From a virus: 22,449 nt of DNA. Below, one piece after another: positions 1,364 to 15,907 of this stretch. The stretch lies in the IMG/VR virus record IMGVR_UViG_3300031787_000907, positions 1-22,449 of that record, one strand, 5' to 3'. Both the position numbers and the translations under genes were made by a program. The notes below the pieces were generated by a model, which made no database searches, was not told the DNA's origin, and saw only the letters and a program-made list of their open reading frames with translations. Position 1 is the first letter of the stretch; each line of letters starts with the position of its first letter.

Positions 1364-1386
1364 GTTAATTCTCCTTAAAAACTATA

Positions 1387-2484: not shown

Positions 2485-2525
2485 ATTGATATTCTCCTCA
2501 GGGTTATTAGAAGATTCTTCTAGTT

Positions 2526-2533
2526 TATTTATA
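2526..2533 (-). promoter_or_regulatory. T4-type late promoter upstream of gp22
   Basis: The minus strand reads TTTTTATAAATAAAC here; the core TATAAATA is an exact match to the T4 late promoter -10 element, recognised by the phage late sigma (gp55) with gp33/gp45. It lies in the 62-base gap between gp21 and gp22, 41 bases before the gp22 ATG. The same 11-base string TTTTATAAATA occurs in front of the gp67-like gene and of gp18. Confidence 0.85.
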
Positions 2534-2546
2534 AAAACGACGCCAT

Positions 2547-3200
2547 TTAGATATTCTTAAGGAACTTATTAAATGCATTCAGAAGAACCGTTTCACGATT
2601 TTCCCTTGTGCCGTATCCCTCATTAATATCATTCTTAATTTGAGCCACATCCTTTTCTACAAGGATGCCGTTATCCCAAACCCATTCCTTACCTTCCATG
2701 ATTCCGTTAGCAAGAGCTTGTGGAGCCGATGGATCAGCAACGATATCCGCAGCGGTAGCGAGATGGAAGTCATTCTGGACTTCCATGATATCACCCTTCT
2801 TAACGAGTGATCCCATACCGCGAGAAGAAAAGCCCAGTTTGGCACCTTCCTTCATAAGATTCTTTACGATATTTCCGTATGGAGTATCCATGATCTTTGC
2901 TTTGCCGATGAAGTTATCACCTTCTTGGCGCAGAGACTTGATCATGTGTGATACGCGCTCGAGATTGATGGTTGGTCCTTGTGGATGTCCAAGCTCACCA
3001 TAAGCGCGATTCTGCTCAACGAACTCACGATTGTAACGTGCAACTTCGTTGGCTAGAGTTTGTGTTGGATAGATACGTCCGTTCTTGTTCTTAAGATTAC
3101 CCTGCATGAGGATACCTTCAAGGAAGAACTGCTTTTCACCTGCTTCATTAGATTCTGTGATGATTTTTAAGTCTTCATTGACTTCGCAGATGAGTTTCAT
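2547..3200 (-). CDS. 21: Prohead maturation protease gp21
   Basis: This 217-aa protein matches the T4 prohead core serine protease, which is packaged in the prohead core and cleaves capsid and core proteins after glutamate. The two catalytic blocks are visible: GELGHP with the putative catalytic His72 (T4 has GELNHP) and GFSSRGMGSL at 123-132 with the putative catalytic Ser (T4 has GVSSRGLGSL). The N-terminal block FLEGILMQGNLKNKNGRIYP (27-45) corresponds to the T4 segment YIEGIFMQAEVVNRNKRLYP. Length is close to T4 gp21 (212 aa). Its ATG overlaps the stop of the upstream 128-aa gene in a TAATG junction, which indicates translational coupling. A 62-base promoter-containing gap separates it from gp22. 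Confidence 0.96.
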   Translation of the reverse strand: MKLICEVNEDLKIITESNEAGEKQFFLEGILMQGNLKNKNGRIYPTQTLANEVARYNREFVEQNRAYGELGHPQGPTINLERVSHMIKSLRQEGDNFIGKAKIMDTPYGNIVKNLMKEGAKLGFSSRGMGSLVKKGDIMEVQNDFHLATAADIVADPSAPQALANGIMEGKEWVWDNGILVEKDVAQIKNDINEGYGTRENRETVLLNAFNKFLKNI

Positions 3201-3586
3201 TAGTATTGCGAGCCTCCACTGATTGATGTTGTCTTATGCAACTTAAGAATAAGTGTAGCAGGGCCAGAACCAACTTTTGTTACTACTACATTTGATGTTG
3301 CTTCCGCATCACCATTGTCGATAAGGCGCGAGTCTGACATATCCATGACATGCTGACCGTCTGTTAACAGTAGGATTGTGTTTGCGCCGCGCTGAACTTG
3401 CCAATACACGTTGTTACCACACGACCACTCAGCAGAAACGATGTTCATGCGAGTAACGTTTTCACCCGCAGAGTTAGCACCAATTGTAGGCGTTGGATGA
3501 TTTCTTTTAATGAAACCACTTGCATTAAACTTAGCGATGAACCAACCGCCCTTGACGTGTTTATTTACAATTCCTTCAGCGGCCAT
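3200..3586 (-). CDS. Unknown 128-aa protein between prohead core genes and gp21
   Basis: I do not recognise this protein. It is small, has no signal peptide or membrane segment, and looks beta-rich: alternating hydrophobic residues run through EWSCGNNVYWQVQRGANTILLLTDG (about 53-77, shown in part) and VVVTKVGSGPATLILKLHKT (98-117). Two motifs stand out: GGWFIAKFNASGFIKRNHPT near the N-terminus and a C-terminal ISGGSQY tail. The gene is joined to its neighbours by TAATG overlaps on both sides, so it is translated together with the core proteins and the protease. Position and coupling argue for a head role, possibly a small decoration or internal head protein; that is inference only. Confidence 0.85.
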   Translation of the reverse strand: MAAEGIVNKHVKGGWFIAKFNASGFIKRNHPTPTIGANSAGENVTRMNIVSAEWSCGNNVYWQVQRGANTILLLTDGQHVMDMSDSRLIDNGDAEATSNVVVTKVGSGPATLILKLHKTTSISGGSQY

Positions 3587-4164
3587 TACTCATCCTCGCT
3601 CATTATGTCAGCAACGAAATCGAGGATGCGCTCGAATGAATCGACGCTCTCGTTAACAGCTGCTTTGAATACGGCTTGATTACCTGTGGTCAATCTATGG
3701 AACACTTCGTGAATAGAATTGTAGATGTCGGCGTTGATTTCGATAACGTCGCCGTTCATAAGTTCAAATTCCATCACGTCTTCATCCGACTCACTGATGA
3801 CTGGAGCATTGATGAAAACTGATTCACCAAATGATGGGGCTTGAACAGATGAAGGAGATGTCTTTAGTGGCTTCATGTCGCCTTGTGTCTTGTCAGCGCG
3901 AGTGAGCGGAGTCTTGCTACCCTTGAAACCAGACTGATCTTTAAGGTCTGAAGTACCTTGCTTGATAGGTCCGCGATCACCATTGTTTGGCTGATGATCA
4001 GCTAGTTTAGTTTCTCCGCCCTTGCTGGATACTGGATAATCTGTTACGTTGCGCGTATGTGCATCGTAAAAATCTTGTTCGCCCTGTGCGCGAGGACGCA
4101 GAGCTTTTGCCTCAGGATTTTCTTCCTTAGCCAGAGCTTCACGCAGTTGTCTGAATGTCTTCAT
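3586..4164 (-). CDS. Prohead protein in the gp68 position, function unknown
   Basis: The frame is open upstream to an ATG at 4236, but the better start is ATG 4164 (192 aa): it has AGGAG at 4175-4179, gives the N-terminus MKTFRQLREALAKEE, and reduces the overlap with the upstream gene to 26 bases. The first residues are a basic amphipathic helix; L-R-E-A at residues 7-10 fits the gp21 cleavage rule, so it may lose a nine-residue leader. Residues about 25-100 are polar, Pro/Gly/Lys-rich and probably disordered. The C-terminal 85 residues are acidic and look folded (EDVMEFELMNGDVIEINADI, then helices ending FVADIMSEDE). In T4 the gene after 67 is 68, a prohead core protein; I see no clear sequence match to gp68, so the assignment rests on position. 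It ends in a TAATG junction with the 128-aa gene. Confidence 0.82.
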   Translation of the reverse strand: MKTFRQLREALAKEENPEAKALRPRAQGEQDFYDAHTRNVTDYPVSSKGGETKLADHQPNNGDRGPIKQGTSDLKDQSGFKGSKTPLTRADKTQGDMKPLKTSPSSVQAPSFGESVFINAPVISESDEDVMEFELMNGDVIEINADIYNSIHEVFHRLTTGNQAVFKAAVNESVDSFERILDFVADIMSEDE

Positions 4165-4354
4165 CTGTCTCAATCTCCTGCTCGGCTGCGAGCTCTTCGT
4201 CCTGCTGTGGGTTAAACATATTTGAAGCGATTTCAACCTTCTTCAGCTCAAGCGCGTCTTCGATCTTAGCTGCAAGCGCGGCTCCGATAGCGTCGCGAAA
4301 TGAGTTTGCGTCCTGATCGGCGGCGGCTTGAATAGCTGTATAAATCTGTTCCAT
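4139..4354 (-). CDS. 67: gp67-like prohead core protein
   Basis: This 71-aa acidic protein resembles T4 gp67, a small major component of the prohead core that is degraded at maturation. The match is by pattern: MEQIYTAIQAAADQDANSF, then AIGAALAAKIEDALELKKVE, then IASNMFN (T4 gp67 has IARNFL at the same place), then a Glu/Asp-rich tail (EELAAEQEIETDED). T4 gp67 is 80 aa. Its position, immediately before the gp68-position gene and gp21, is the T4 order. GGAGT precedes the ATG and a late promoter lies only 21 bases upstream, making it the first gene of the core-protease unit. Its last 26 bases overlap the next gene. Confidence 0.85.
   Translation of the reverse strand: MEQIYTAIQAAADQDANSFRDAIGAALAAKIEDALELKKVEIASNMFNPQQDEELAAEQEIETDEDIQTTA
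4174..4179 (-). promoter_or_regulatory. Ribosome binding site that decides the 4164 start
   Basis: The minus strand reads AGGAGA ten bases before ATG 4164. No comparable site precedes the in-frame ATG at 4236, which lies well inside the gp67-like gene, so translation most likely starts at 4164. Confidence 0.7.
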
Positions 4355-4375
4355 AATGATACTCCGTTGTGAATC

Positions 4376-4383
4376 TATTTATA
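4376..4383 (-). promoter_or_regulatory. T4-type late promoter upstream of the gp67-like gene
   Basis: The minus strand reads AATTTTATAAATAGATTC, containing an exact TATAAATA core. It sits in the 32-base gap between the stop of the 1529-aa fibre gene and the gp67-like ATG, leaving an expected leader of only about 15 bases with the GGAGT ribosome site. It would separate expression of the core-protease genes from the inserted fibre cassette. Confidence 0.85.
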
Positions 4384-4386
4384 AAA

Positions 4387-7300
4387 TTACCCAATAATCC
4401 AACCCCAACTATATCCAATCACAGGAGCATTTGCAAATATCCAACCACTGTTATTTCCGCCATCTGTAGAAGCTGCTCCAGCATACCAAGTTGCTCCTCC
4501 AGTTGCGTTAGAGTAGCTGATGGAAAGATAATTGGCGTTAACAGTGCCGCTTGCCTTGGACAGCGTGTGAGAAGCCGCTGTGCCACTTTGAATAGTCACC
4601 AAATTGCCTGCGGTCCCGTTGATGTTCCAGTTGGTCAGAGTTGTGGTGGTGCCAGCCGTGAAACTGAACGTGGTAGGTTGGACGCTGTTGGCAAGCGTGA
4701 TGAACGTGTTGCTATCGGTAATGGTAAGCGCACCCGCACCCCCATTATTAAGTGTGCAGTTGTAAGTTGACCCACCGCCCACAAAGGTCTTGGCGCTTGC
4801 CGACGTCATGTTAATGGTGCCCGTACCAGTACCCGCAGTGGTGGTGAAACCAGTTGGTGCAGCATTATTGAAGGAGGTCGCGCCTGAGCTGGGACATGTT
4901 AAAGTGCCACCATTGAACGTCAGGTTCTTGGTACCTGCGGCAGTCGTGTAGGACGTGCCAGTGGTCAGTGTAAAACCGTTGAGGTCCAACGTACCGTTGG
5001 TGTGGGTAAGTGTGCGTGTTGATCCCAAGGTCAAGGCACTGAGCAGTCTGCAAGTGCCGCCTATGCCATTGAAAGTGATGGGAAAATCAAGCGTCTTGCC
5101 ATTAGTTGTAATTGTTTGAGTGCCTGTAGTAGCGAATGTCCAAGCATTAACACCAGCAGTCAATGTTGGAGAAGTACCGTTAACAGTAAGGTTTCCGTAG
5201 ATAATAATAGCTACGTTTGATAGTGTAAATGCACTGTTATCAATAGTAAGATTTTTAATTGTATTAGATGTTGTAAATGCAACAGATCCTGAAGTTAAAC
5301 TTAATTGAAAACTTACAGCATCTGCTTCTGAAAGTGCTCCCGCCCCTATTTGCTGCCCGGCAGTAGTACCAGTTATCTGAACCAAAATATTTCCATCTGT
5401 CGATAAATTGGTTACAACAGTTGTAGTCCAAACCGTGCCCAATGTATTTCGCGAAATAACAAACTTACCACCGGAGCCAGACATTTGAATTCTTCTTGTG
5501 CCAGTTCCTGAACCAGAAAATACTCCAAAGATAGTAAAATTATATGAATTTAATTCTAACGTTCCTGTTGTAAATGTAACAGTTCGAATTGCTGATGCAC
5601 CAACAGACAAAGCACTTCCTAGAGAATAAGTACCAGTACCACTAAACGTAATTGGAAAGTCAAGAGTCATACCATTTGTAGTTATTGTTTGTGTTCCAGC
5701 CGTACCAGCAAATGTCCAAATATTTGTACCTGCAGTAAGTGTTGGTGTAGTACCAGCAATTGTTAAATCACCGTAAATTGTAATTGCAACGTTTGATAGT
5801 GTAAAGGAATTGTTGTCAATTATAAGATTTTTTACACCGTTACCTGAAGTAAATGTTACAGTGCCTGAAGTTGTTGATAGTTGAAAATTATATGATCTGT
5901 TTGATACTGCTGGGCCAGCAGATATAGTTTTAGTTGTAGCTCCTCCACCAGTTAGTTGTACAAGAAGACTACCAGAGATAATTAAACCGTTATTAGTGGT
6001 AGTATCCCATACAATTTCTGCAGACGATGATGTGAGTACTATCCTACCAGTACCAAAATTTATTGCTCTAGTATTAGAGTTATTGGAGTCAAATTTATTA
6101 CAAGTAAAAGTAAATGCTCCTAGAGCTAGAGTTCCAAAAGTAAGAATAGCAGTACCAGTTGTTGTTAATGCATCCTGGAGAGTCCACTCACCTAGTGGAC
6201 CATTGAATGTAATTGCAGAAAATACATTACTATTTGTTGTAATAGTTAACCCAAGCTCACCGCCAGCAAAAGTTAGAGTACCTGTATAACTCTGTGTAAA
6301 ATTGGTTGAAGGTAAAGACAAGCTACCATAAACGGTTAAAGTTGAACTGCCACTAAGTGTCATATTATTATCTAAACCAGAGGCTGTCATTGAGTGACAT
6401 ACTGCTCCGGTGCTTACTGTAACTGCAAAGCCTGCGCCTGAATCTGAGTTTGCATCAAATATAACATCTGTATATTGATCTGGAATATAAGAACTAACAC
6501 TTCCACCCGAAGTATTTGACCAATTAGCATTAGAGGAAGCATTCCAAGTGCCACTACCACCTATCCAATAAAGAATAGGATTTGCAAACATTATATTGTT
6601 GTTGTTGCCATTATCAACTGAACCGTTTACCATATACCATATATTTGGAACGTTTGCAGAAATATCTCTAACAGCTGCATATGGAACAACAATACGAGTT
6701 GCTCCTGTGTAAACAATATTTGCACGAGATCCAACAGTGCTTGCTCTAATAGTATTAGTAGACGAGCGAGTAGCTCCACTAGTCGTAAGAGAAGCAAATG
6801 TATTAGTAGTTGTTGATTGTAGTATTAAATCACAAGCATTTTGTAAAGTTAAATTATTAAAAGTGTTGCTTCCATTTACAGATAGGTGACCATTTCCTGC
6901 AGATCCTGTAAACGAGACATTGTAGTAAGTTTTGCTCCCACCACTGAAAGTCGTGGTTCCGGTATTAGTAAGTAAAATTGTAGATGAGCTAGCATTTAGA
7001 GTTAAATTAGTACCATTTATATTCCACGATAAACCAGAGCTAGATATAGTCCAGGTACCAGTTCCTAAATTGAGTGTTCTAGTGTTAGTTACGTTTGAGC
7101 TGAAGACTGGAATAGTAACATTATACGTGGCCGCACTAAATGTGCCGTTTGTCAGAGTCACACTAGAAGAAGTAGTTAAAGCACTTTGAAGTGTCCAAGA
7201 ACCTCCTACACCATTAAATACAATTGGAAAATCGAGCGTTTTGCCATTAGTTGTAATTGTTTTTGAAGATGTTGCTGCAAACGTCCAATTGTTTACACCA

Positions 7301-8976
7301 GCCGTTAGTGTAGGGCTAGTACCAGCTATAGTTAAATTTCCGTAAATTGTAATAACTATATTAGTGGATATGCTAAAACTATTGTTATCAATAGTAAGAT
7401 CTTTTATAGTATCAGATGTTGTAAAAGCAACTGTTCCAGCTGTTGTAGATAATTGAAAACTTATAGAATTTGCTTCTGTTAAAGCACCTGCAGAAATTGT
7501 TTTGGTTACTGCACCACCACCTGTTAACTGGACAAGAACATTTCCATCAGTTGTTAAGTTAGTTACCGTAGCGGTATTCCAAACTGTGGCAAGAGTATTC
7601 AACGATAATACAATTTTGCCGCCTACGCTAGACCTTTGTATTTTTCTAACACCTGTACCCGAAGAAGAAAATATACCAAATAATGTAAACGTATATGAAT
7701 TTAATTCTAATGTACCAGAAGTTAATGTAACTGTTCTAGATGTAGAGGTTCCAACAGACAAAGCACTTCCTAAACTGTAGGTTCCAGTACCACTAAACGT
7801 GATAGGAAAATCTAATGTTTTGCCATTAGTAGTAATAGTTTGAGTGCCAGAGCCTGCAAACGTCCATGCGTTTGCACCAGCGGCAAGTGTTGGTATTGTA
7901 CCATTAATTGCCACATCACCATAAATTGTAATTGCAACGTTTGATAGTGTATAGGCGCTGTTAGACAAACCTAAACTTTTTACTGTATCTCCAGCTGTAA
8001 ATGATGTAGTTCCATTGAGAGATGAAATAGAAAATCTAATAGCATTAGCTTCAGATAATTGACCAGCTGAAATAGTTTGCGATATATTGTTAGTACCAAA
8101 TACAACAACTAAAACATTTCCATCAGTTGTTAAGTTAGTTACCGTAGAGGTATTCCAAAATGTTGCAGCTGATACAGGTCTTACGGTTATGATACCATTA
8201 CCAGACCTTTGAATTCTTCTAACACCTGTACCCGAAGAAATAAATGTACCATAGATATCAAAGCTGAACGAATTTACTTCTAACGTTCCTGTTGTTAATG
8301 TAACATTTCTATCAGCAGCAGTTGTACCAATAGTTACAGCACTATTCAAAGAATAAGTCGCTGTTCCCGCAAACGTAATTGGAAAATCTAATACTTTTAA
8401 AGATGCAACAGTTATGTTTTGGGTTCCACCTGTTTTTGCAAAAGTTTGAGTGTTTGTTCCACCAGTTAGTGTCATGCCGGAGGAAACCGTTAGGTTCCCG
8501 TAAATAGTTCTGGCAGCATTTGAAAGTGTTCCTGCAAATCCCGTAAAATTAAGAGACCGCACGTTGCCCGTAAGCGTTAGCGCGTAAGTCCCAGCGGTGA
8601 AATTGAAACTGATGCTATTTGCTTCACTTACCGCAGTGGCGGCTACTGTCGTAGCTGTTGCTGTATTGTTTGTGATATTGATAACAGGTGTACCAGTTAC
8701 GGTGACACCCGTTCCTCCAGTGAAAACTGTGCCAGTGCTATTAAGTGAAATTGTGTTGGTTCCAAACGCAAGAGTCCCTGTATAGCCGGTCATTGTTAGC
8801 GTTTGAATTGTGACGCTGCTGTCTAAGGTGGCAACGCCTGTTCCAGATGAGGCGTTAAAGATTGCAGCATCGTTCGTGCCAGGCACAGATGCGCCGCCCG
8901 CGCCACCAGATGTCGCTGACCACCGAGCAGTATCACTCCAGTTGCCGGTACCGCCAACCCAAAATCTGTTTGCCAT
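4387..8976 (-). CDS. Giant beta-rich repeat protein, probable virion fibre or adhesin (1529 aa)
   Basis: The protein is almost entirely Thr/Ser/Gly/Asn/Ala/Val with very few charged residues, as in beta-helical or beta-solenoid fibres. It begins with MANRFWVGGTGNWSDTARWS, a head motif seen in phage and bacterial repeat surface proteins; a second copy (YWIGGSGTWNASSNANWSN) lies near residue 800. In between and after are repeats of about 192 aa anchored on TNGKTLDFPITF: clear copies are encoded near 8385, 7810, 7230, 5660 and 5090, with a degraded copy near 6205. The C-terminus (SNATGGATWYAGAASTDGGN, then GYSWGWIIG) looks like a capping domain. No signal peptide, coiled coil or enzyme motif is seen. 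Composition changes inside the gene: about 57-65% GC in sampled lines near both ends against about 28% in the middle. Start ATG 8976 has AGGAG ten bases upstream; it follows the 73-aa gene by three bases. A function in attachment is inferred from architecture and neighbours. Confidence 0.9.
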   Translation of the reverse strand: MANRFWVGGTGNWSDTARWSATSGGAGGASVPGTNDAAIFNASSGTGVATLDSSVTIQTLTMTGYTGTLAFGTNTISLNSTGTVFTGGTGVTVTGTPVINITNNTATATTVAATAVSEANSISFNFTAGTYALTLTGNVRSLNFTGFAGTLSNAARTIYGNLTVSSGMTLTGGTNTQTFAKTGGTQNITVASLKVLDFPITFAGTATYSLNSAVTIGTTAADRNVTLTTGTLEVNSFSFDIYGTFISSGTGVRRIQRSGNGIITVRPVSAATFWNTSTVTNLTTDGNVLVVVFGTNNISQTISAGQLSEANAIRFSISSLNGTTSFTAGDTVKSLGLSNSAYTLSNVAITIYGDVAINGTIPTLAAGANAWTFAGSGTQTITTNGKTLDFPITFSGTGTYSLGSALSVGTSTSRTVTLTSGTLELNSYTFTLFGIFSSSGTGVRKIQRSSVGGKIVLSLNTLATVWNTATVTNLTTDGNVLVQLTGGGAVTKTISAGALTEANSISFQLSTTAGTVAFTTSDTIKDLTIDNNSFSISTNIVITIYGNLTIAGTSPTLTAGVNNWTFAATSSKTITTNGKTLDFPIVFNGVGGSWTLQSALTTSSSVTLTNGTFSAATYNVTIPVFSSNVTNTRTLNLGTGTWTISSSGLSWNINGTNLTLNASSSTILLTNTGTTTFSGGSKTYYNVSFTGSAGNGHLSVNGSNTFNNLTLQNACDLILQSTTTNTFASLTTSGATRSSTNTIRASTVGSRANIVYTGATRIVVPYAAVRDISANVPNIWYMVNGSVDNGNNNNIMFANPILYWIGGSGTWNASSNANWSNTSGGSVSSYIPDQYTDVIFDANSDSGAGFAVTVSTGAVCHSMTASGLDNNMTLSGSSTLTVYGSLSLPSTNFTQSYTGTLTFAGGELGLTITTNSNVFSAITFNGPLGEWTLQDALTTTGTAILTFGTLALGAFTFTCNKFDSNNSNTRAINFGTGRIVLTSSSAEIVWDTTTNNGLIISGSLLVQLTGGGATTKTISAGPAVSNRSYNFQLSTTSGTVTFTSGNGVKNLIIDNNSFTLSNVAITIYGDLTIAGTTPTLTAGTNIWTFAGTAGTQTITTNGMTLDFPITFSGTGTYSLGSALSVGASAIRTVTFTTGTLELNSYNFTIFGVFSGSGTGTRRIQMSGSGGKFVISRNTLGTVWTTTVVTNLSTDGNILVQITGTTAGQQIGAGALSEADAVSFQLSLTSGSVAFTTSNTIKNLTIDNSAFTLSNVAIIIYGNLTVNGTSPTLTAGVNAWTFATTGTQTITTNGKTLDFPITFNGIGGTCRLLSALTLGSTRTLTHTNGTLDLNGFTLTTGTSYTTAAGTKNLTFNGGTLTCPSSGATSFNNAAPTGFTTTAGTGTGTINMTSASAKTFVGGGSTYNCTLNNGGAGALTITDSNTFITLANSVQPTTFSFTAGTTTTLTNWNINGTAGNLVTIQSGTAASHTLSKASGTVNANYLSISYSNATGGATWYAGAASTDGGNNSGWIFANAPVIGYSWGWIIG
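5075..8410 (-). repeat. Internal coding repeats of about 570-580 bp in the 1529-aa gene
   Basis: Anchors coding LDFPI-type motifs occur near 5090, 5660, (6205, degraded), 7230, 7810 and 8385, mostly 570-580 bases apart. Some copies are still close at DNA level: 7537-7583 and 8113-8159 differ at one position in 47 bases at an offset of exactly 576 bases (192 codons), and 5601-5620 equals 7752-7771. This suggests recent unequal recombination or duplication within the gene. Confidence 0.85.
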
Positions 8977-8979
8977 GCA

Positions 8980-9201
8980 TTACTCCTGTACGACTGGTTC
9001 TTCAGTCGGTACTTCGGATACAGGCTGGTTTATGATAGCAATCCAATTATTATATCGCTGTTGTTTGATCTCAGCGATTTCTTCAGCCGACAAATTTTCA
9101 TAATCTTTTTGATACATAACTATTGCATCATTATAAATCAAAGGCTCACTACCCATTTGAAATGAGTCGCTTATCATACCGTTTTCAAGAATAGTAATCA
9201 T
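8980..9201 (-). CDS. Small acidic protein between fibre genes (73 aa)
   Basis: I do not recognise this protein with certainty. It is 73 aa and acidic, with a predicted helix AEEIAEIKQQRYNNWIAIIN (about 39-58) and a Pro/Glu/Val-rich tail ending TEEPVVQE. Small proteins with a similar helix occur beside tail-fibre genes in T4-like cyanophages, where some serve as fibre assembly factors or short structural adaptors; this is recollection, not a search result. The ATG at 9201 overlaps the upstream fibre gene region closely (stop at 9203-9205, GAGGAC upstream), and its stop is three bases before the 1529-aa gene, so the three genes are translated as one block. A chaperone or connector for the neighbouring fibres is a reasonable guess. 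Confidence 0.75.
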   Translation of the reverse strand: MITILENGMISDSFQMGSEPLIYNDAIVMYQKDYENLSAEEIAEIKQQRYNNWIAIINQPVSEVPTEEPVVQE

Positions 9202-9202
9202 A

Positions 9203-10612
9203 TTAAGTCCTCGTTAAGTTTAGTGATAGTGTTAATCTTGTTATAGTCGTAGAACTATCTATATTGAAACGCAGAGTATCTCCAGCTGTAATTGATGTAG
9301 TCCATCCAGTCAATGTAGAACTAGTCGCGCTCGTTTGAGATGTTAATGTTGGTTTAGCAGAACCAGTAATTGTATCTGCAACAGTCGGAGGATAGTTAGC
9401 GAACGTATCTTTCCATATGTCTACTACAGCACTACCAGATTGATCTGCCATTAAAGACCACGATGTAATCGTAGAATTAAATGGAATTTGCAAATCACCT
9501 TTTATGCCTGTTGTGATAGCTGATCCGCCGCCGTCAATTAAAAATCCAATACCTGCTGTTGTGGTTGAAGAAGAAATAGTAATGGTATCTGTTGTTGGAT
9601 TTCCAGCAAGTGTAATACCCGATCCAGCAACTAGAGTAAGTCTATCAGTTGTTGAGTCTGCTGAAACTACGTTAGCACCTACAAGGATACCAGAGAATCC
9701 GTTGGCTGCACTTCCACCGCCTCCAGATACAGGAGACCAATAGACACCTGTTCCAGACGTGCGAAGATAATAACCAGACACACCAGCTGTATTGTTTGCT
9801 ACAAGAGTTCCACCAAGTATTGTGTTACCTGATACGCTCAATTGACCATTGGCTACTGTTACACCGTTGATAACTGTTCTGTCTGTTACAACAGCAGGAT
9901 TGCCTAAGACGGTGTTACCAGCAACATATAAGTTTGTGGAAATTGTAGCACGACCAGTATGTGCTAGTAGACCAGATGTAGCTGGATTTGATTTTGTAGC
10001 GTATAACGTTGATGCGTTGGCTACTTGTAATCTGTCAGAAATAAGTGCGCGAAGAGCAGTATTGGTTCCCGTTAGATTTGTATTGACCAGTGTAATACGC
10101 GATGTTTGCGTAGCAATTGAAGAGTTTGTGTTAGCAAGTGCAGCACGTTCAATAGTTTTTGTTTGATAGATTGCTACAGCATTAGCCACTTGTAAACGAT
10201 CACTGATAAGTGTACGAAGAGCAGTGTTTGTGCCAGTGAGCGCAGTCCAGCTTGCTCTTGTTGCAATATAAGCGTTTGTATTGGCTAGTATAGTTTTGAC
10301 ATAGCTATTTGACGCAGCATATGCTTTTGTGGCATAGGTTGCGGAAGCATTAGAAACTTGGAGATAATTTGTTGATACAGCTGCTGTAACACCAGTAACA
10401 ACTGTATCATTTTGCGTTAGATTTTTTACAAGAGATGTTGTAGTAGAAACTAATCCGCCACTGCCACCACCAATTTCGAATACAGCCGTACCGTTGGAAG
10501 AGTAAAGTTTCTGATCTTTATAATTGATTGCAAGTTCACCAACGCTCAGCGAAGCTGTGTTTGGTTGTTTACCCAAAACGCCACTGCGTTTGATTTTAAT
10601 TGTTGATGCCAC
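9203..10612 (-). CDS. Fibre-type virion structural protein (469 aa), paralogue of the 417-aa protein
   Basis: The likely start is GTG at 10612, preceded by AGGAG at a short four-base spacing, and it yields MASTIKIKRSG, matching the start of the paralogue next door. Residues 1-50 form a small head domain (IKIKRSG, SLSVGELAINYKDQKLY) common in T4-like fibre proteins. Residues about 60-190 are a repeat shaft with ANTN(A/S)xIAT units and two copies of LISDRLQVANA. A linker (GTLVANNTAGVSGYYLRTSG) is shared with the paralogue. The last 119 residues form a distinct domain starting GIGFLIDGGGSAITTGIKGD and containing DIWKDTFANYPPTVADTI, a module I recall from the C-termini of diverse phage tail proteins, probably a beta-sandwich tip. 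Likely a trimeric fibre with a receptor-contacting C-terminus; target unknown. Confidence 0.88.
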   Translation of the reverse strand: MASTIKIKRSGVLGKQPNTASLSVGELAINYKDQKLYSSNGTAVFEIGGGSGGLVSTTTSLVKNLTQNDTVVTGVTAAVSTNYLQVSNASATYATKAYAASNSYVKTILANTNAYIATRASWTALTGTNTALRTLISDRLQVANAVAIYQTKTIERAALANTNSSIATQTSRITLVNTNLTGTNTALRALISDRLQVANASTLYATKSNPATSGLLAHTGRATISTNLYVAGNTVLGNPAVVTDRTVINGVTVANGQLSVSGNTILGGTLVANNTAGVSGYYLRTSGTGVYWSPVSGGGGSAANGFSGILVGANVVSADSTTDRLTLVAGSGITLAGNPTTDTITISSSTTTAGIGFLIDGGGSAITTGIKGDLQIPFNSTITSWSLMADQSGSAVVDIWKDTFANYPPTVADTITGSAKPTLTSQTSATSSTLTGWTTSITAGDTLRFNIDSSTTITRLTLSLNLTRT

Positions 10613-10632
10613 ACTCGACTCCTAGAAAGGAA

Positions 10633-10660
10633 AGGTGGGTGAAGCACTTGTCACCCACCT
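10633..10660 (-). terminator. Perfect 10-bp hairpin between the two fibre paralogues, possible terminator
   Basis: Bases 10633-10642 and 10651-10660 are perfect inverted repeats (AGGTGGGTGA and TCACCCACCT) around an eight-base loop. On the minus strand the stem is followed by TTCCTTTC, a broken pyrimidine run rather than a clean T tract. It lies in the 65-base gap after the 417-aa gene. It may be a rho-independent terminator that reduces read-through into the downstream fibre gene, or a stabilising leader stem. Confidence 0.65.
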
Positions 10661-10669
10661 GTGCATATC

Positions 10670-10677
10670 AATTTATA
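10670..10677 (-). promoter_or_regulatory. Possible weak late promoter (TATAAATT)
   Basis: TATAAATT, one base off the late consensus, begins directly after the stop codon of the 417-aa gene and 58 bases before the GTG of the 469-aa gene. The flanks (AATATAAATTG) lack the T-run shared by the three strong sites. If active, its transcript would start with the 10633-10660 hairpin. Confidence 0.35.
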
Positions 10678-11931
10678 TTAGTATGTTCCGCCGTCAACTA
10701 CAGCTTCGATTGTAGCAACTGCATAGCCAGCTGCACCAGTATCTACTGTTGTTCCTGGTTCTGTTTGAGAACCTGTATAGAACTTGAACACACCGTCTGT
10801 TGCATCGCGGAACAAACCAGAATACTTTGTTCCTGATGAAGCATACTTACCATAGAAACCTACGTCAACTGCGTCTGTCGAGTTATTAGCAGCCAACTTA
10901 ATCATCGAGTCATCAACGTTCAGAGTCGATGAAGAAATATAAGTTACTGCACCTTCAACAGTCAGATCGCCGTCAATGATTGTAGAACCGCTGATTCGTG
11001 TGTTACCAGAAACAGCAAGGTTTGTTCCAACGGTCAAGCGACCTGAGTGATTGAAGAACCCTGATGTTGACGGACTTGACTTGACTGCGTAAGTAGAAAC
11101 TGCATTAGCAACTTCTAGGTATTTGGCAACGTTGAGATTAGCTGTATCCAGAGGAGCCCAATAGACACCAGTTCCAGATGTTCTCAGATAGTAGCCAGAA
11201 GTTCCTGCTGTATTGTTAGCAACAAGAGTTCCACCAAGTGTTGTATTACCAGAAACCGAAAGGTTTGTGCTGATAGTCGCACGACCAGTATGTGCTAACA
11301 AACCAGATGTTGTTGGATTGGATGCGTTAGCTTTGGTTGCAATATATGTGTTGGTATTAGCAAGCGCAGAATTGAATGTGCTTGTGCTGACCTTAGTTGC
11401 AATGTACGAATTGGTATTAGCTAAACGAGCATCAGCTGTAGATTTTGTTTCATACGTTGATGCAGCATTAGCAACCTGAAGGCGATCCGAGATAAGTGTA
11501 CGGAGCGCTGTATTGGTATTGACAAGGTTTGTATTAACAAGCCCAATACGAGTTGCTTGTGTAGCAATGTATGAATTCGTATTAGCAAGATCTGTATTAT
11601 GGGTGCTTGTGTTTAGCTTAGTCGCAATGTATGAGTTGGTATTAGCTAATGCAGAATTGAACGTAGTCGTATTGACTTTTGTTGCGATATAAGAATTTGT
11701 ATTCGCAAGAAGAGTATTTACATACGAGTTGGCTGCTGCATATGCTTTCGTCGCATATACTGCAGAAGCATTGGCTACCGAAAGGTACTGAGCGCCAATT
11801 CGATAGATCGTTGCTCCATCACCGACGAATAGCTGACGATCAGGAATGTTGACGGCAATTTCACCTGCAACAAGTGCAGACGGCGCAGCCCCTGGCGTCG
11901 TACTTCTTTTGATTTTAATTATTGATGCCAT
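10678..11931 (-). CDS. Fibre-type virion structural protein (417 aa)
   Basis: The N-terminus MASIIKIKRSTTPG plus LVAGEIAVNIPDRQLFVGDG is the same head domain as in the 469-aa neighbour. The shaft (about 55-200) contains five copies of LANTN(S/T)YIAT, three of them exactly 20 residues apart, plus one LISDRLQVANA unit. Then follow TSGLLAHTGRATISTNLSVS and a beta-rich stem with GNTRISGSTIIDGDLTVEGA. The last 60 residues (FYGKYASSGTKYSGLFRDAT ... ending VVDGGTY) form a C-terminal domain I recall from several T4-like phage structural proteins. The ATG at 11931 lies inside the upstream coiled-coil gene, overlapping its last 17 bases. Both fibre paralogues probably trimerise and may form one long fibre or alternative fibres; the stop is followed by a hairpin. 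Confidence 0.88.
   Translation of the reverse strand: MASIIKIKRSTTPGAAPSALVAGEIAVNIPDRQLFVGDGATIYRIGAQYLSVANASAVYATKAYAAANSYVNTLLANTNSYIATKVNTTTFNSALANTNSYIATKLNTSTHNTDLANTNSYIATQATRIGLVNTNLVNTNTALRTLISDRLQVANAASTYETKSTADARLANTNSYIATKVSTSTFNSALANTNTYIATKANASNPTTSGLLAHTGRATISTNLSVSGNTTLGGTLVANNTAGTSGYYLRTSGTGVYWAPLDTANLNVAKYLEVANAVSTYAVKSSPSTSGFFNHSGRLTVGTNLAVSGNTRISGSTIIDGDLTVEGAVTYISSSTLNVDDSMIKLAANNSTDAVDVGFYGKYASSGTKYSGLFRDATDGVFKFYTGSQTEPGTTVDTGAAGYAVATIEAVVDGGTY
11337..11714 (-). repeat. 20-aa LANTNSYIAT coding repeats in the 417-aa fibre shaft
   Basis: Five copies are encoded near 11684-11714, 11625-11655, 11565-11590, 11395-11425 and 11337-11365. The first three are 60 bases apart and the last two 57. 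Related single or double copies occur in the 469-aa gene and in the 135-aa gene (near 13000). Confidence 0.85.
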
Positions 11932-12265
11932 TTCCTACACCTCTGTTTTTAAACATTGAGCCGTCAGAGCTCTTGCGTTTTTGTTGACGTTTTATTTTTT
12001 CTTTTAGAACTGCTTCGTTTCTTTCACTAGTGACATCATCAAGATAATTGCTTAAACTTTTTCGATCAACTCTAGTGAGTTTATCGAGTTGTTCTTTATA
12101 CTCGCTATTTATACTTTTTAGCTTATTGAGTTCTTTTTCGAGCATAGTATTTTTAGTCGTCAGTAAAAGTATCTGTTGCTGCAGCTGATTGATTTTGGTC
12201 TGCTGCTGCTCCATAAACTCATTGATAACTTCAAGCTCTTTGCCCTCTTCAAATGTATCAGACAT
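11915..12265 (-). CDS. Coiled-coil protein within the fibre cassette (116 aa)
   Basis: I do not recognise the family. Residues about 10-70 form a long coiled coil with Leu/Ile at heptad spacing and many Gln, Lys and Glu (FMEQQQTKINQLQQQILLLT, KNTMLEKELNKLKSINSEYK), and the C-terminal 35 residues are very basic (LKEKIKRQQKRKSS). It lacks a signal peptide or membrane segment. Its ATG follows the stop of the 206-aa gene without a gap and its 3' end overlaps the next fibre gene by 17 bases, so translation is coupled. A helical connector, trimerisation scaffold or fibre chaperone would fit; nothing in the sequence decides between these. Confidence 0.8.
   Translation of the reverse strand: MSDTFEEGKELEVINEFMEQQQTKINQLQQQILLLTTKNTMLEKELNKLKSINSEYKEQLDKLTRVDRKSLSNYLDDVTSERNEAVLKEKIKRQQKRKSSDGSMFKNRGVGNGINN
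12106..12113 (-). promoter_or_regulatory. Internal exact TATAAATA, possible late promoter or chance match
   Basis: An exact late-promoter core lies inside the 116-aa coiled-coil gene, 175 bases before the 417-aa fibre start. Its flanks (AAGTATAAATAGC) lack the TTT run found at the three intergenic sites, and about one chance match per strand is expected in a window of this size and composition. Confidence 0.3.
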
Positions 12266-12886
12266 TTACGAATAAGAACCTCCATCCACGTCATCGAACT
12301 TGGGAATCCCGTTAGATCCGATCTGCATTACTTTGCCGCTTGATCCTGTAGCAAAAGCAAACGCTGTGCTATTTGAAGCGTACATCACGCCATTTTGCGT
12401 CAATGAAGATTTGCCTGTGCCACCGTATTGAACACCAAGAACGTTGTTCAATACAAGATTTGTAATTGTTAGTTTTTCGAACGTGCTTGGTGTATTGGCT
12501 GTAACGACAAGCTGTGATGCTTGAATAGTAGCAGGTTGATTGTTACTAGTTACAAAAGTGATAACACCGTTACCACTGGCTTTGATTTGGGCTCCGGCAA
12601 GATAAATTGTATTACCAGCTAGATAAAGTGATCTCCATCTTTTGGTAGGTGTGCCAAGATCGTATGTTATGTTCGCTTGCGGAACAATGTTAGTCGTGAC
12701 GCTGAGTAGATTAGCTGAAGCTGCGCCTATCTCATTAAACTTTGCAAGACGCGTTCCACCAACAGTCGATCCGTCATGAACACGGATCGTCTTGTTAGTG
12801 GTATCAACCGTTATCTCACCGTTCGCTCCAGTGAACGAATTGTGCTGAGTGGCCGTACCTCTTCTGAACTTTATCTCGATAGCCAT
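12266..12886 (-). CDS. Virion protein with Mtd-like N-terminal domain (206 aa)
   Basis: The first 50 residues (EIKFRRGTATQHNSFTGANG, EITVDTTNKTIRVHDGSTVG) resemble the small N-terminal domain of phage tropism and tail-fibre proteins (the Mtd N-terminal type), a beta structure used to join trimers or attach to the virion. The middle (NITYDLGTPTKRWRSLYLAG, followed by a short beta-helix-like stretch with LYLAGNTIYLAGAQIKASGN) is the stem found in many phage fibres, and the C-terminus contains LNNVLGVQYGGTGKSSLTQN and ends DDVDGGSYS. No lectin or depolymerase motif is seen. It starts in a TAATG overlap with the 135-aa gene. Probably a short fibre or connector in the same structure as its neighbours; the domain assignment is from memory of the pattern. 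Confidence 0.83.
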   Translation of the reverse strand: MAIEIKFRRGTATQHNSFTGANGEITVDTTNKTIRVHDGSTVGGTRLAKFNEIGAASANLLSVTTNIVPQANITYDLGTPTKRWRSLYLAGNTIYLAGAQIKASGNGVITFVTSNNQPATIQASQLVVTANTPSTFEKLTITNLVLNNVLGVQYGGTGKSSLTQNGVMYASNSTAFAFATGSSGKVMQIGSNGIPKFDDVDGGSYS

Positions 12887-13293
12887 TACAGCGTTCCGTA
12901 ATCCTGTTGTGTATCTGGATCAACCGCAGATGTAATAAAGCCATAATCAAAACCCCCCGATGAAGGAGAAGCAGCAACAACAGACGCTATGTAAGAGTTA
13001 GTGTTTGCAAGCAACAACTTTACATATGCGTTCGATGCAGCATAAGCCTTCGTAGCATATTTATTAGCTACATTGGCTACTTGAATTCTGTCATTGATAA
13101 GTGCGCGAACAGCCACATTAGATGCAGCGTATGCTTTAGTTGCGAACTTTGCGTTCGCATTCGTTACTTCAATGTAGATGTGTTCATTACTACCAATTTC
13201 ATTAACAGCATCAATGATCTCATTGACCTTAAGTCGCAGAGATTTAATTGTTGTTGTAGAACTTGTGTTGGCTACTCCAATCGGATGGCTCAT
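12886..13293 (-). CDS. Short repeat fibre protein (135 aa)
   Basis: Residues 10-45 form a likely helix (TIKSLRLKVNEIIDAVNEIG). Residues about 48-112 repeat the shaft units of the two larger fibres: FATKAYAASN and YATKAYAASN, LINDRIQVANV and LLANTNSYIAS. The C-terminus GGFDYGFITSAVDPDTQQDY, then GTL, is a short tail I recall from T4-like structural proteins. It lacks the IKIKRS head domain of the larger paralogues, so it is a shaft-only version. The ATG overlaps the stop of the collagen-like gene (ATGA), and its own stop overlaps the next ATG (TAATG). Likely assembles with the neighbouring fibres. Confidence 0.83.
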   Translation of the reverse strand: MSHPIGVANTSSTTTIKSLRLKVNEIIDAVNEIGSNEHIYIEVTNANAKFATKAYAASNVAVRALINDRIQVANVANKYATKAYAASNAYVKLLLANTNSYIASVVAASPSSGGFDYGFITSAVDPDTQQDYGTL

Positions 13294-14144
13294 GGATTCT
13301 CCAGAGCGTCGATACGAGCTTCTAGAGCAGCGATCTGTGAGAGCGCATTATTAAGAGCATTCGTTAATACATTGATTGTGTTTGAAGACGCGCCTGTTAC
13401 GTTTACGACAACTAGATCGTTTTCGTTTAGGTCACCAAGTTCTGATTTCGTAACAAGAAGCGGAGCTGTATTACCACCTCCTCCAGCAACTGTTCCAGCT
13501 TGCCATTTACCAGTCGCTGAGTTATAGACAAGTGCTTGACCATTGCTCGCGTTCTTCAAGCTGGTATAATCAACGTCATCGAGTTTGTGAAGATTGACTT
13601 CACCAGATCCAGAACTACGACCAAGACCCATTGCGGCAGAAAATGCGATACGCGAGATGCGCTTTTCTGCGCCGTCAAGAAACTGCTCTACTTCTTTGCG
13701 AAGCGGAGTGATATCAGCCATAGGTCCGACTGGACCAACTGGACCTACCGGACCGCGCTCACCTGGATCACCCTTATCACCTCTGTCTCCCTTTTCGCCT
13801 TTCTCGCCGCGAATACCAATCTCGCCTTGTTCACCAATAAGACCGCGTGGACCAATATCACCTTTGTTACCTTTTGGACCACGTCGACCTTCAGGTCCAC
13901 GCAAGCGAACTTCCTTCAGCTCCAACACTCCGTTAGACTCTGAAAGAGTTTTGATTTGTTCTAGGATTTCGCGCTTGATTTCGTTTGCTTCTTGTTTGGC
14001 AAACTTGGAAGAGATAGAAAGTATTTTAGCCTTTTCTACTTCAGATATGCTATTTTCGAGTAGATTTTTGCGTAGTTCTTCCGCTTCTGCCTTAGCGAAC
14101 TTGGCAGCTATGGAAAGAATCTGAGCTTTTTCTAACTCTTTCAT
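13290..14144 (-). CDS. Collagen-like coiled-coil virion protein (284 aa)
   Basis: The protein has three parts. Residues 5-65 are two tandem helical repeats of 32 aa (EKAQILSIAAKFAK and EKAKILSISSKFAK at the starts). Residues 83-142 are 20 uninterrupted Gly-X-Y triplets, many charged (GEKGEKGDRGDKGDPGER) and ending in GPVGPVGPVGPM; such phage collagen repeats form trimeric rods. Residues about 180-284 include GSGEVNLHKLDDVDYTSLKN, a segment I recall from cyanophage-type fibre proteins, and a C-terminal coiled coil (ALNNALSQIAALEARIDALE) that could drive trimerisation. The gene starts two bases after the gp20 stop with only a weak GGAT-type ribosome site, so it may depend on translation from the portal gene. 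Probably a trimeric fibre or whisker at head or neck; inferred. Confidence 0.9.
   Translation of the reverse strand: MKELEKAQILSIAAKFAKAEAEELRKNLLENSISEVEKAKILSISSKFAKQEANEIKREILEQIKTLSESNGVLELKEVRLRGPEGRRGPKGNKGDIGPRGLIGEQGEIGIRGEKGEKGDRGDKGDPGERGPVGPVGPVGPMADITPLRKEVEQFLDGAEKRISRIAFSAAMGLGRSSGSGEVNLHKLDDVDYTSLKNASNGQALVYNSATGKWQAGTVAGGGGNTAPLLVTKSELGDLNENDLVVVNVTGASSNTINVLTNALNNALSQIAALEARIDALENP
13719..13898 (-). repeat. Collagen-like Gly-X-Y coding repeat, 20 triplets
   Basis: Sixty residues (83-142 of the 284-aa protein) follow a strict Gly-X-Y pattern without interruption. The last part is nearly homogeneous at protein level (four GP(V/M) triplets), while the rest is charged with Glu/Asp-Lys/Arg pairs that favour a triple helix without hydroxyproline. 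Confidence 0.95.
13950..14132 (-). repeat. Tandem 32-aa helical repeat at the N-terminus of the collagen-like protein
   Basis: Residues 5-36 and 37-65 align with EKA(Q/K)ILSI(A/S)(A/S)KFAK(A/Q)EA at their starts; the corresponding DNA segments are also visibly similar, pointing to a local duplication. Confidence 0.85.
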
Positions 14145-14146
14145 TT

Positions 14147-15907
14147 TTAGATAGCATCCTTGATCTCTTCTTCCACGTCGTCAAGATCTTCTTTAGAAAC
14201 CTTTTCAATAGCACGAGTCATGCTTTCGATGAGCTTCTTATCTTCTTCTGTTAATATTTTAGGAATGAAAGGAACGGTTTCTTCTTTCGCCGTTACTTTC
14301 TTTGTGCCAGAAGTATCATTCTTGACTCTAATTTCAACTTTTTGTGGCGTTGATTTTTCTTTTTGTGGTTGCGTGTTAGCTATATTCTGATCATTGTTTT
14401 GCTGCTGCTCTGCGTTAGCCTCAGCTTCAGCCTGACCCTCAATAGCCATCTGCTGATCCATTTCTTTCATCTCGTCTTCAGTTTGACGAAGAACGTTCTT
14501 ACGAATCCACTCGACTGAGTAATACTTACCAACGTATGCGTCAACAACACCAAGAACAGCAAGACGATTATTCATCATATCCTGTTCTTTGATTTCAGCG
14601 TAGTAGTTGTCACGCTGGAAATCATACTTGATATCGTTCTTCATATCCTTCCACTCTTCGCGGGTCATTACACCCTTGAGGAGCAGTTGGATTTCTAACA
14701 GATTATCAAACAGATGTGTAAAACGATCGCGCAGACGCTCAACGAACTTGGCATACTTTACTTCGTCGCGTGTGATTTCACCTGAACGACCAAGCGAGAA
14801 CTGACCGTCTGGTTCAAGGCGCGAGATAGGAACTGACAGAGACTTGTAGAGCTTCTTGCGGAAGTAGTCTACGTCATCCATCTGCCCAAGATTCTCACCG
14901 CCAGGCAACGTGGTAATTTCTGTACCACGTCCACCCTCGCGGCGTGGGAGCCAATAATCCTCAAGCATAGTCATGAACTTACGAGCGTCTTTGATTTCGC
15001 CGTTGTTCGCATCGTAGACCAGACGATTTTTGTGACGAACCATCATGTCGCGAACATACTGTTCAGCTTTTGCTTTGGGAAGATTACCAACGTCAATGTA
15101 GAAGATACGACGCTCGGGAGCGCGCGCGAGACGATAGATAACTACCGCGTCTTCGAGCATACGCAACTGATTAAGTGGCTTGATCGCTTTGTGTAGATGC
15201 GAAAGAACCATGCGATTGCGAGCGTCAAGCAAACCGCTGTGAACGTAGCAGATAGCATCTTTCGAAATCTTTACACCCTGTGTGAGCGTACCAGATGAAA
15301 GACCTGCTGGATTGAAGAGATAGTATTCTTCGTATGGAGGAGCAATCAGCTTAGAGTTCTGCCCAACAACTGGCGTTCTCTTGATTGGCTGACGAATCTT
15401 GCGGATACGACGAGGATCGATGTAACGCAGCTCTTGAATGCCCTTGCGAGGCTGAGCTGTGTCAATCATGATGTGATAGAACAAACGACCGTCGATATAC
15501 CAACGACGGAAGATTTCATAAGCCATGCTATTAAAGTCGAGCAGAGTTAGAATTTCATTGAACTCTTCTTCAATGCGCTTCTTGATGCTGTCTGGCTGTT
15601 CTAGTTTGTCGAGATTGAGTGAGACTGGATCATCATGTTCATTTGAGATGATGGCTTCATTAACAACGTCATCGACAGCAGACTCGCACTCTGGATACAT
15701 CGACATTTCGCGATATCGAGTTACGAGTTCTGCTTCGTTCTTAGCTGTACCTTCTAGATCAACATACGTTCCATATGCGCCACCAGGCGCGACTTCCATC
15801 GCGCCGTCAAGATTAGGAGGTGGGGCAAATGAAGGGATTTGGACTGCTTGCTTTTCAGCAACGTCGTTGTCCCTTCCAATGCGGAAGCCAAATAATTCGA
15901 TCGCCAT
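14147..15907 (-). CDS. 20: Portal vertex protein gp20
   Basis: This 586-aa protein is the T4-type portal: a dodecameric ring at one capsid vertex that nucleates head assembly, binds the gp17 motor and later joins the neck. Family segments include YREMSMYPECESAVDDVVNE (about 65-84), FRRWYIDGRLFYH (133-145), RYIDPRRIRKIR and, about residues 363-385, FSLGRSGEITRDEVKYAKF, which matches the T4 block with TITRDELKFSRF. T4 gp20 is 524 aa; the extra length is a C-terminal low-complexity tail (about 490-586) rich in Gln, Glu and Lys, likely disordered. AAGGAA precedes the ATG, and a near-consensus late promoter lies about 18 bases upstream. The collagen-like gene begins two bases after the stop. Confidence 0.97.
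   Translation of the reverse strand: MAIELFGFRIGRDNDVAEKQAVQIPSFAPPPNLDGAMEVAPGGAYGTYVDLEGTAKNEAELVTRYREMSMYPECESAVDDVVNEAIISNEHDDPVSLNLDKLEQPDSIKKRIEEEFNEILTLLDFNSMAYEIFRRWYIDGRLFYHIMIDTAQPRKGIQELRYIDPRRIRKIRQPIKRTPVVGQNSKLIAPPYEEYYLFNPAGLSSGTLTQGVKISKDAICYVHSGLLDARNRMVLSHLHKAIKPLNQLRMLEDAVVIYRLARAPERRIFYIDVGNLPKAKAEQYVRDMMVRHKNRLVYDANNGEIKDARKFMTMLEDYWLPRREGGRGTEITTLPGGENLGQMDDVDYFRKKLYKSLSVPISRLEPDGQFSLGRSGEITRDEVKYAKFVERLRDRFTHLFDNLLEIQLLLKGVMTREEWKDMKNDIKYDFQRDNYYAEIKEQDMMNNRLAVLGVVDAYVGKYYSVEWIRKNVLRQTEDEMKEMDQQMAIEGQAEAEANAEQQQNNDQNIANTQPQKEKSTPQKVEIRVKNDTSGTKKVTAKEETVPFIPKILTEEDKKLIESMTRAIEKVSKEDLDDVEEEIKDAI

Follow-up and report, generated by a model that had tools for sequence, protein, structure and literature searches.

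The window analyzed here, a stretch of 22,449 nt (positions 1 to 22,449 of the IMG/VR virus record IMGVR_UViG_3300031787_000907), carries a virion module of a T4-like phage, all of it on the minus strand. The genes gp15, gp16, gp17, gp18, gp19, gp20, gp21, gp22 and gp23 were assigned by PHROG matches and keep the T4 order. Between the portal gene gp20 and the prohead-core genes, eight open reading frames (ORFs) on the same strand run from 14144 down to 4387. Counted from the gp20 side, they encode 284, 135, 206, 116, 417, 469, 73 and 1529 aa, and the junctions from gp20 on (+, gap; -, overlap) measure 2, -4, -1, 0, -17, +65, +1 and +3 bases. These eight genes, called the cassette below, and the adjoining portal gene are the following.

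14147..15907, minus strand: gp20, portal (phrog_213, 1.8e-210), with the C-terminal tail ..EEDKKLIESMTRAIEKVS..
13290..14144, minus strand: col284, anchor protein (Collagen PF01391, 3.5e-10; anchor hidden Markov model, HMM)
12886..13293, minus strand: o135, fibre segment ending in DYGTL (type 1 ending)
12266..12886, minus strand: m206, fibre segment with an FRRGT-type N-terminal domain (N-domain) (Mtd_N PF18454, 9.9e-16; PDB 1yu0, 1.3e-9)
11915..12265, minus strand: cc116, small coiled-coil-like protein between the protein with the type 2 ending and its partner
10678..11931, minus strand: F417, fibre segment with a KRS-type N-domain (PF18454, 2e-06), ending in VDGGTY
9203..10612, minus strand: F469, fibre segment with a KRS-type N-domain (phrog_35197, 8.8e-37; phrog_10330, 3.1e-19)
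8980..9201, minus strand: o73, small protein directly before F1529
4387..8976, minus strand: F1529, large repetitive, AT-rich, adhesin-like protein

The original prediction had placed a block of eight fibre-type genes, mostly coupled by overlaps, between gp20 and a gp67-like gene, with the core genes in canonical order. The ORF map, the PHROG matches and the junctions agree with this description. The Collagen match in the first gene and the Mtd_N matches in the third and fifth bear out the fibrous character, and the uninterrupted T4 order 20-67-68-21-22-23, against which the block had been set, was verified in NC_000866. Furthermore, window positions 1045-15351 recur at 99.98% identity on a contig of a different sample (L083), so that an assembly error in the window record does not explain the arrangement.

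The cassette is real and recurs across a clade. It is best read as a tail-fibre locus that has been relocated and encodes a fibre built of segments, and we put at roughly 0.65 the probability that it is the main host-recognition (tail-fibre) locus of an uncultured T4-like clade, lying behind the portal gene and not with the baseplate genes. A wider proposal, more exciting and less certain, is put forward tentatively: a single kind of joint, in which a C-terminal peptide of the form D-[YFLG]-G-x-hydrophobic plugs into the Mtd/gp37-type domain of the next trimeric segment, may unite much of phage fibre architecture. Phage host range depends largely on the fibre tips, and the joining of fibre segments is known for few phages.

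The evidence for such joints lies in the two ends of the cassette proteins. The ending motif was defined as D-[Y/F/L]-G-x-hydrophobic or [D/N]-G-G-x-[Y/F], an aliphatic last residue giving type 1 and an aromatic one type 2. The anchor protein col284 begins with a conserved helix in two tandem copies, followed by a collagen-like middle and a coiled-coil-like end, and in G005 an o135-type part is fused to the anchor protein. The m206 protein ends in DGGSYS (type 2), and the DGG is invariant in 20 of 20 aligned relatives that were picked irrespective of their ending. A similarly invariant DGG in the F417 alignment was dropped as evidence because its members had been chosen by ending. F469 is without a C-terminal motif. 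Part of its end matches a virion structural protein of S-SSM7, and its C-terminal part is exchangeable, several relatives keeping just the preceding stretch and then ending differently; F469 is a candidate for the tip. Its N-terminus was recognized only by an in-house N-domain profile that had itself been seeded with F469.

The Mtd/gp37-type domain was N-terminal in 220 of 221 matches in the first locus set. Among 156 unique domain genes with an upstream neighbour, 85 directly follow a protein with a strict ending and 43 more do so with one gene between (26 of these cc116-like), while 28 break the rule, many of them with near endings. When the loci were pooled, a domain gene was found within two genes after 235 of 260 motif-ending ORFs, as against 229 of 2490 other ORFs. 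The ending type moreover predicted the domain type: a type 1 ending was followed by an FRRGT-type domain in 75 of 76 cases, and the 159 type 2 endings by KRS-type (140), FRRGT-type (18) or other (1) domains. Since the pooled loci were fetched by similarity and are akin, a Fisher test on those counts does not give a fair probability. Long contigs and named genomes totalling 547 kb, which had not been cut around the motif, held 13 N-domain ORFs among 558 ORFs, and a domain followed within two genes after all 10 motif-ending ORFs. In new loci obtained from Mtd-domain scans outside the clade, the ending was present in 73 of 168 immediate pairs, compared with 39 of 334 background ORFs.

The loci L316, L329 and L346 (similar ones run up to L352) encode four domain proteins in series; three of the four measure only 67-120 aa and have DYG/DGG/DMG endings. 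Series of this type form a natural minimal set for testing the joint.

The complete cassettes were examined for agreement between the two elements. The number of domains equalled the number of endings in 17 of 19 cassettes and was 4/3 in the other two; eight of the 19, including all three one-gene cassettes, have neither element. This count omitted cassettes that repeat an already seen anchor start, and six of the omitted ones were also equal (L083, which is the window's own with 3/3, L096, L124, L162, L091 and L066). The ending motif was found on 44 of 48 F417-like domain proteins versus 3 of 50 F469-like ones, as fits inner and terminal segments, respectively. In L124 (1498 aa) and L011 (1066 aa), the anchor-, F417- and F469-like parts stand in one chain that holds no joint element, and L005 spreads over several genes what these two hold in one. 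Fused fibres that lack both domains and endings have the look expected of a joint made needless by fusion.

The fibre may therefore be pictured as follows. The anchor, whose gene follows gp20, carries its conserved N-terminal helix and, here, a collagen-like stem. The C-terminal peptide of each presumably trimeric segment would dock into the domain at the start of the following segment, as gp36 does on gp37 in T4, giving in the window the putative chain o135 -> m206 -> F417 -> F469, with the C-terminal domain of F469 as the exchangeable tip. The o135 segment is probably tied to col284, the two being one protein in relatives. F1529 would be a further adhesin with o73 as its possible helper, a role suggested by the place of the small gene; o73-like genes also precede F1529-like genes in L162 and in G001, a contig that may be chimaeric. 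The least certain element is the seat of the anchor, placed here on the tail and not on the neck or head.

The cc116 protein is a possible assembly factor. In P-HM2 (L376:2847-3053), an ORF of 68 aa with a comparable make-up occupies the equivalent place, and a short coiled-coil-like gene also lies between a DGG-ending fibre protein and its partner in Mosig (L233:37915-38124). The gene in this position may help to make the joint.

The closest known parallel to the proposed joint is the gp36-gp37 junction of T4, in which, according to PMC3004832, trimeric gp36 binds the N-terminal region of gp37. When the first 50 aa of F417 were used in a tblastn search, 796 phage records matched at E up to 0.1, and most of the 40 matches listed are annotated as tail fibre, often as the gp37 distal subunit. 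The start of T4 gp37 scored 35.7 bits with the cassette N-domain profile. As in the T4 pair, where gp37 opens with this domain, F417 and F469 have it at their N-termini, and the proteins encoded upstream end in a D-x-G motif. The ending D[FY]Gx[YF] was present on all nine T4-type gp36 proteins read (T4, phiP4-3, Apostate, Acj133, Entb_45 by position, JS10, Prick1, RB5 and Ec_YwIITB1); the cassette endings DYGTL, DGGSYS and VDGGTY are of the same general kind in other letters, and the gp36 endings combine the two types that are separate in the cassette. In Ec_YwIITB1, the gene downstream of gp36 is annotated from an internal start and reaches only E 0.0099 with the domain profile. Unlike the T4 pair, the cassette has another locus, more than one joint in series and a collagen-like anchor behind the portal. 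No gp34- or gp35-type match was found among the window proteins scanned, and sequence searches of the PDB returned no solved structure of T4 gp36 and only chance-level matches for the N-terminal region of gp37.

A second parallel is Mtd of the Bordetella phage BPP-1, the N-terminal domain of which is carried by m206. According to PMC10743442, the N-terminal prism of Mtd presumably attaches to a tail-fibre protein. The BPP-1 fibre protein Bbp9, encoded directly upstream of mtd, ends in ADLGGIA. Unlike Mtd, m206 has no lectin-domain match: the C-type lectin variable domain was not found in m206 or F417 by a Pfam scan up to E = 1. No reverse transcriptase turned up among the proteins of the window, which covers 22 kb of a larger genome and in which none was searched for by name. 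A literature search on a joint of this kind revealed no description in the titles and first lines of abstracts covered or in passages of PMC3004832, PMC10743442 and PMC3567102.

If the unifying joint is real, it would explain the gp36-gp37 junction of T4, the seat of Mtd on its fibre and the daisy-chained fibres of marine and freshwater phages. The gene order would be the physical order of the fibre, the last residue, aliphatic or aromatic, would serve as an address for two socket subtypes, and the chain of the present clade would be plugged into a portal-linked anchor. Fibre order and partners could then be read from sequence in uncultured phages, and short peptides could be employed to test both the hold of gp36 on gp37 and the binding partner of the Mtd N-terminal prism.

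The distribution of the cassette was assessed in 39 rows in which gp20 and gp21 occur together; these are loci or joined contigs and partly overlap. Fibre-type genes lie between gp20 and gp21 in 18 rows (2,785 to 20,128 bases), while in the 21 rows without them the gp20-gp21 spacing is 216 to 1,549 bases. T4, syn9, Mosig and HTVC008M have only small genes over 0.2-1.5 kb behind gp20, namely genes 67 and 68 in T4, one gene in syn9, five in Mosig and four in HTVC008M. The block had been singled out as an accessory, host-interaction region, and the one to five small genes of these named phages are in keeping with that, but it is not an insertion peculiar to the window phage. The suggested comparison of gene order showed that the same genes recur at this place throughout a large uncultured clade, and that they are built of modules of the gp36/gp37 and Mtd tail-fibre kind. 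The anchor HMM, built from the N-terminal 40 residues encoded by the first cassette gene, detected 60 unique genes, which lie directly behind gp20 in all 58 cases with a visible upstream gene. Among the named portals listed, the best are approximately 59% identical to the window gp20, and among the sampled rows the best gp23 match belongs to Pelagibacter phage Mosig (68%). In a tree of 86 portals, three changes between carriers and non-carriers were required, or two when L039, whose anchor is weak, is placed among the carriers; the long branch L121 underlies one of these changes. On this evidence, the cassette is an old trait of a deep clade.

The smallest cassettes consist of one gene (L021, 519 aa; L006, 558 aa; L011, 1066 aa), and the largest, in G005, has 16 same-strand genes ahead of o71. 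Near gp20 the gene order changes little, with the collagen-stem anchor followed by the o135-type gene, m206, the small coiled-coil-like gene, F417 and F469, and the distal genes vary between relatives. The cassette of G005 (contig positions 25270-34469, L251) also encodes repeat proteins and proteins that we take, from their N-termini, to be involved in sugar or sulfate transfer, presumably as in the usual host recognition cluster.

The host recognition cluster of pelagi- and cyanomyophages resembles the cassette in its variable fibre genes, which include collagen-repeat and Mtd-domain proteins, but extends from VrlC to gp13/gp14 and not between gp20 and gp21; the pelagimyophage fibre island is always between VrlC and gp14 according to PMC7029224. 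The fibre genes of HTVC008M, Mosig and P-HM2 obey the joint rule. The hyperplastic region g15-g18 of cyanomyoviruses is likewise a variable block inside the structural module, although at another place and, in PMC2984593, described with metabolic genes. Both places can be seen in G002 and G003, and in the parts read their N-domains and endings occur only behind gp20; in the parts read of G001, Mosig and HTVC008M they occur only at the usual fibre place. The chain thus seems to have been relocated, not doubled, and a T4-like fibre block is not bound to the baseplate region.

A head, collar or neck location of the fibres was also considered, with the anchor on the portal or neck. The original prediction had held this as probable as tail fibres, and it would explain both the constant place of the anchor gene behind gp20 and the special portal tail of the carriers. 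When the C-terminal tails of 88 listed portals were judged by eye, all 58 anchor carriers had the tail (divergent in some), as did four portals with a weak anchor (L039, L040, L041 and L071); the other 25 were without it and L099 is a split ORF. However, the link between portal and cassette amounts to few events, the tree needing only 2-3 state changes, and co-occurrence was for this reason rejected as proof. Homology of the portal tail with the anchor helix, the two being alike by eye, was also rejected (hhalign P 0.39). Moreover, the C-terminus of the portal presumably faces the head interior, which counts against this reading. The segments are of the tail-fibre type, as indicated by the matches of F417, the score of gp37 with the profile and the gp36 endings, and these shared gp36/gp37 and Mtd modules make a tail fibre likelier; fibres of the head, collar or neck are accordingly considered unlikely.

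Alternatively, the cassette could encode two or more separate short fibres or spikes, each protein attaching to the virion by itself, in which endings and N-domains are attachment parts of a different sort and not partners of one another. Some pairs are split by cc116 or other small genes, F1529 and F469 are both tip-like, and the 18 of 159 type 2 endings that precede the other domain type would be in keeping with such an arrangement. The equal counts in 17 of 19 cassettes and the fused fibres without either element speak for a chain, as does the binding of gp37 by T4 gp36 (PMC3004832), and separate fibres are regarded as improbable. Passive hitchhiking, in which a mobile set of adhesin genes is merely tolerated behind gp20 and forms no common structure, might account for the wide variation of the distal genes and for the putative sugar/sulfate-transfer genes of G005, but is highly improbable in view of the recurrence of the order anchor, m206, small coiled-coil gene, F417 and F469 across portals down to approximately 54% identity.

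Several results weigh against a segmented tail fibre with peptide joints. The Pfam and PHROG scans found no gp36 or gp34 domain in the ten proteins scanned, and PF03903, the gp36 domain, was absent from the cassette proteins up to E = 1; T4 gp36 itself gives 9.6e-53 with this domain. The start of T4 gp37 has no Pfam match and gave E 0.39 with the Mtd profile, so that the tie between gp37 and Mtd runs only via intermediates. AlphaFold models were weak, with a mean pLDDT of 51 for m206 and 70 for F417, and the Foldseek match of the F417 model to Mtd was not significant (E 1.1). The docking of the segments is a prediction from sequence. Most loci are not independent, having been retrieved through their similarity to the cassette proteins themselves. 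An attempt to count independent origins by clustering the upstream proteins failed when one merged cluster took 199 of 313, and the motif had a majority in 6 of 26 clusters. More than one form of the motif was used: an earlier one, fixed before the T4 records but after some other named-phage records were read, is obeyed by 16 of 22 named phages and a narrower one by only 6 of 22, because T4-type endings mix both types. Besides these 22, the set has a 23rd row, a second upstream gene of P-HM2. The ending is absent from Phosso, S-CAM3, Sf-FS3 and S-SSM7 and only approached in D69 and K437b. Of the 17 bacterial-genome loci in which a pair could be read, only 2 follow the rule (3 of 21 pairs). These loci (L266-L286) hold Mtd-domain genes in bacterial contigs, many of them alphaproteobacterial and probably prophage, mostly without a motif-ending neighbour, and their Mtd-domain proteins may attach in another way.

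Beyond the cassette, the genes run in the order o71, the gp67-position gene, a 128-aa gene, gp21 (2547-3200), gp22 and gp23. The further features of the window are listed below.

21545-22378, minus strand: gp14, first in the gene order, before gp15; named because its relatives match the neck protein of Mosig
10633..10660, minus strand: terminator-like hairpin between F417 and F469, in the 65-base gap, by consensus match only
4139..4354, minus strand: o71, small gene at the head-core-side edge of the cassette, kept beside the gp67-position gene in relatives
3586..4236, minus strand: gp67-position gene, by its position and a weak match (phrog_696, 4.8e-5)
3200..3586, minus strand: conserved 128-aa gene before gp21, without a family match in the Pfam and PHROG scans

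The name gp67-like, as originally given, has its basis in position and the weak phrog_696 match and calls for care, and o71 also lies between this gene and the cassette. The listed start of the gp67-position gene is TTG; a downstream ATG agrees better with the relatives, most of which, among those shown, start with MKTF. The scan with the terminator-like consensus found 14 sites, compared with a mean of 8.7 in shuffled sequence.

F1529 gave no match at 1e-5 among 50,697 phage records. Window positions 5001-8000, within this gene, have a G+C content of 37-38%, versus 40-51% in the remaining window. In G001 (L235) and G008 (L253-L254), the window phage is joined to a second T4-like phage inside F1529 (window 5639-8976), in opposite senses. 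A recent exchange of F1529 with the second phage was considered and dropped, since the overlap at one of the junctions is 92% identical over 190 bases, which makes assembly chimaeras as likely as recombination; the junctions are probably chimaeric, recombination being possible.

A relative of the portal on the G004 contig (83561-85060) is read with two in-frame TGA codons. Recoding of TGA in L140, from the same contig, was dropped because the open-frame coverage barely shifts (0.971 to 0.98). The 128-aa protein, conserved in the clade before gp21, ends in ISGGSQY, with a faint likeness to the fibre endings. Finally, approximately residues 160-224 of the gp18 tail sheath (16599-18551) match the tail-fibre family phrog_1980 (1.1e-10), like an inserted fibre-type domain.

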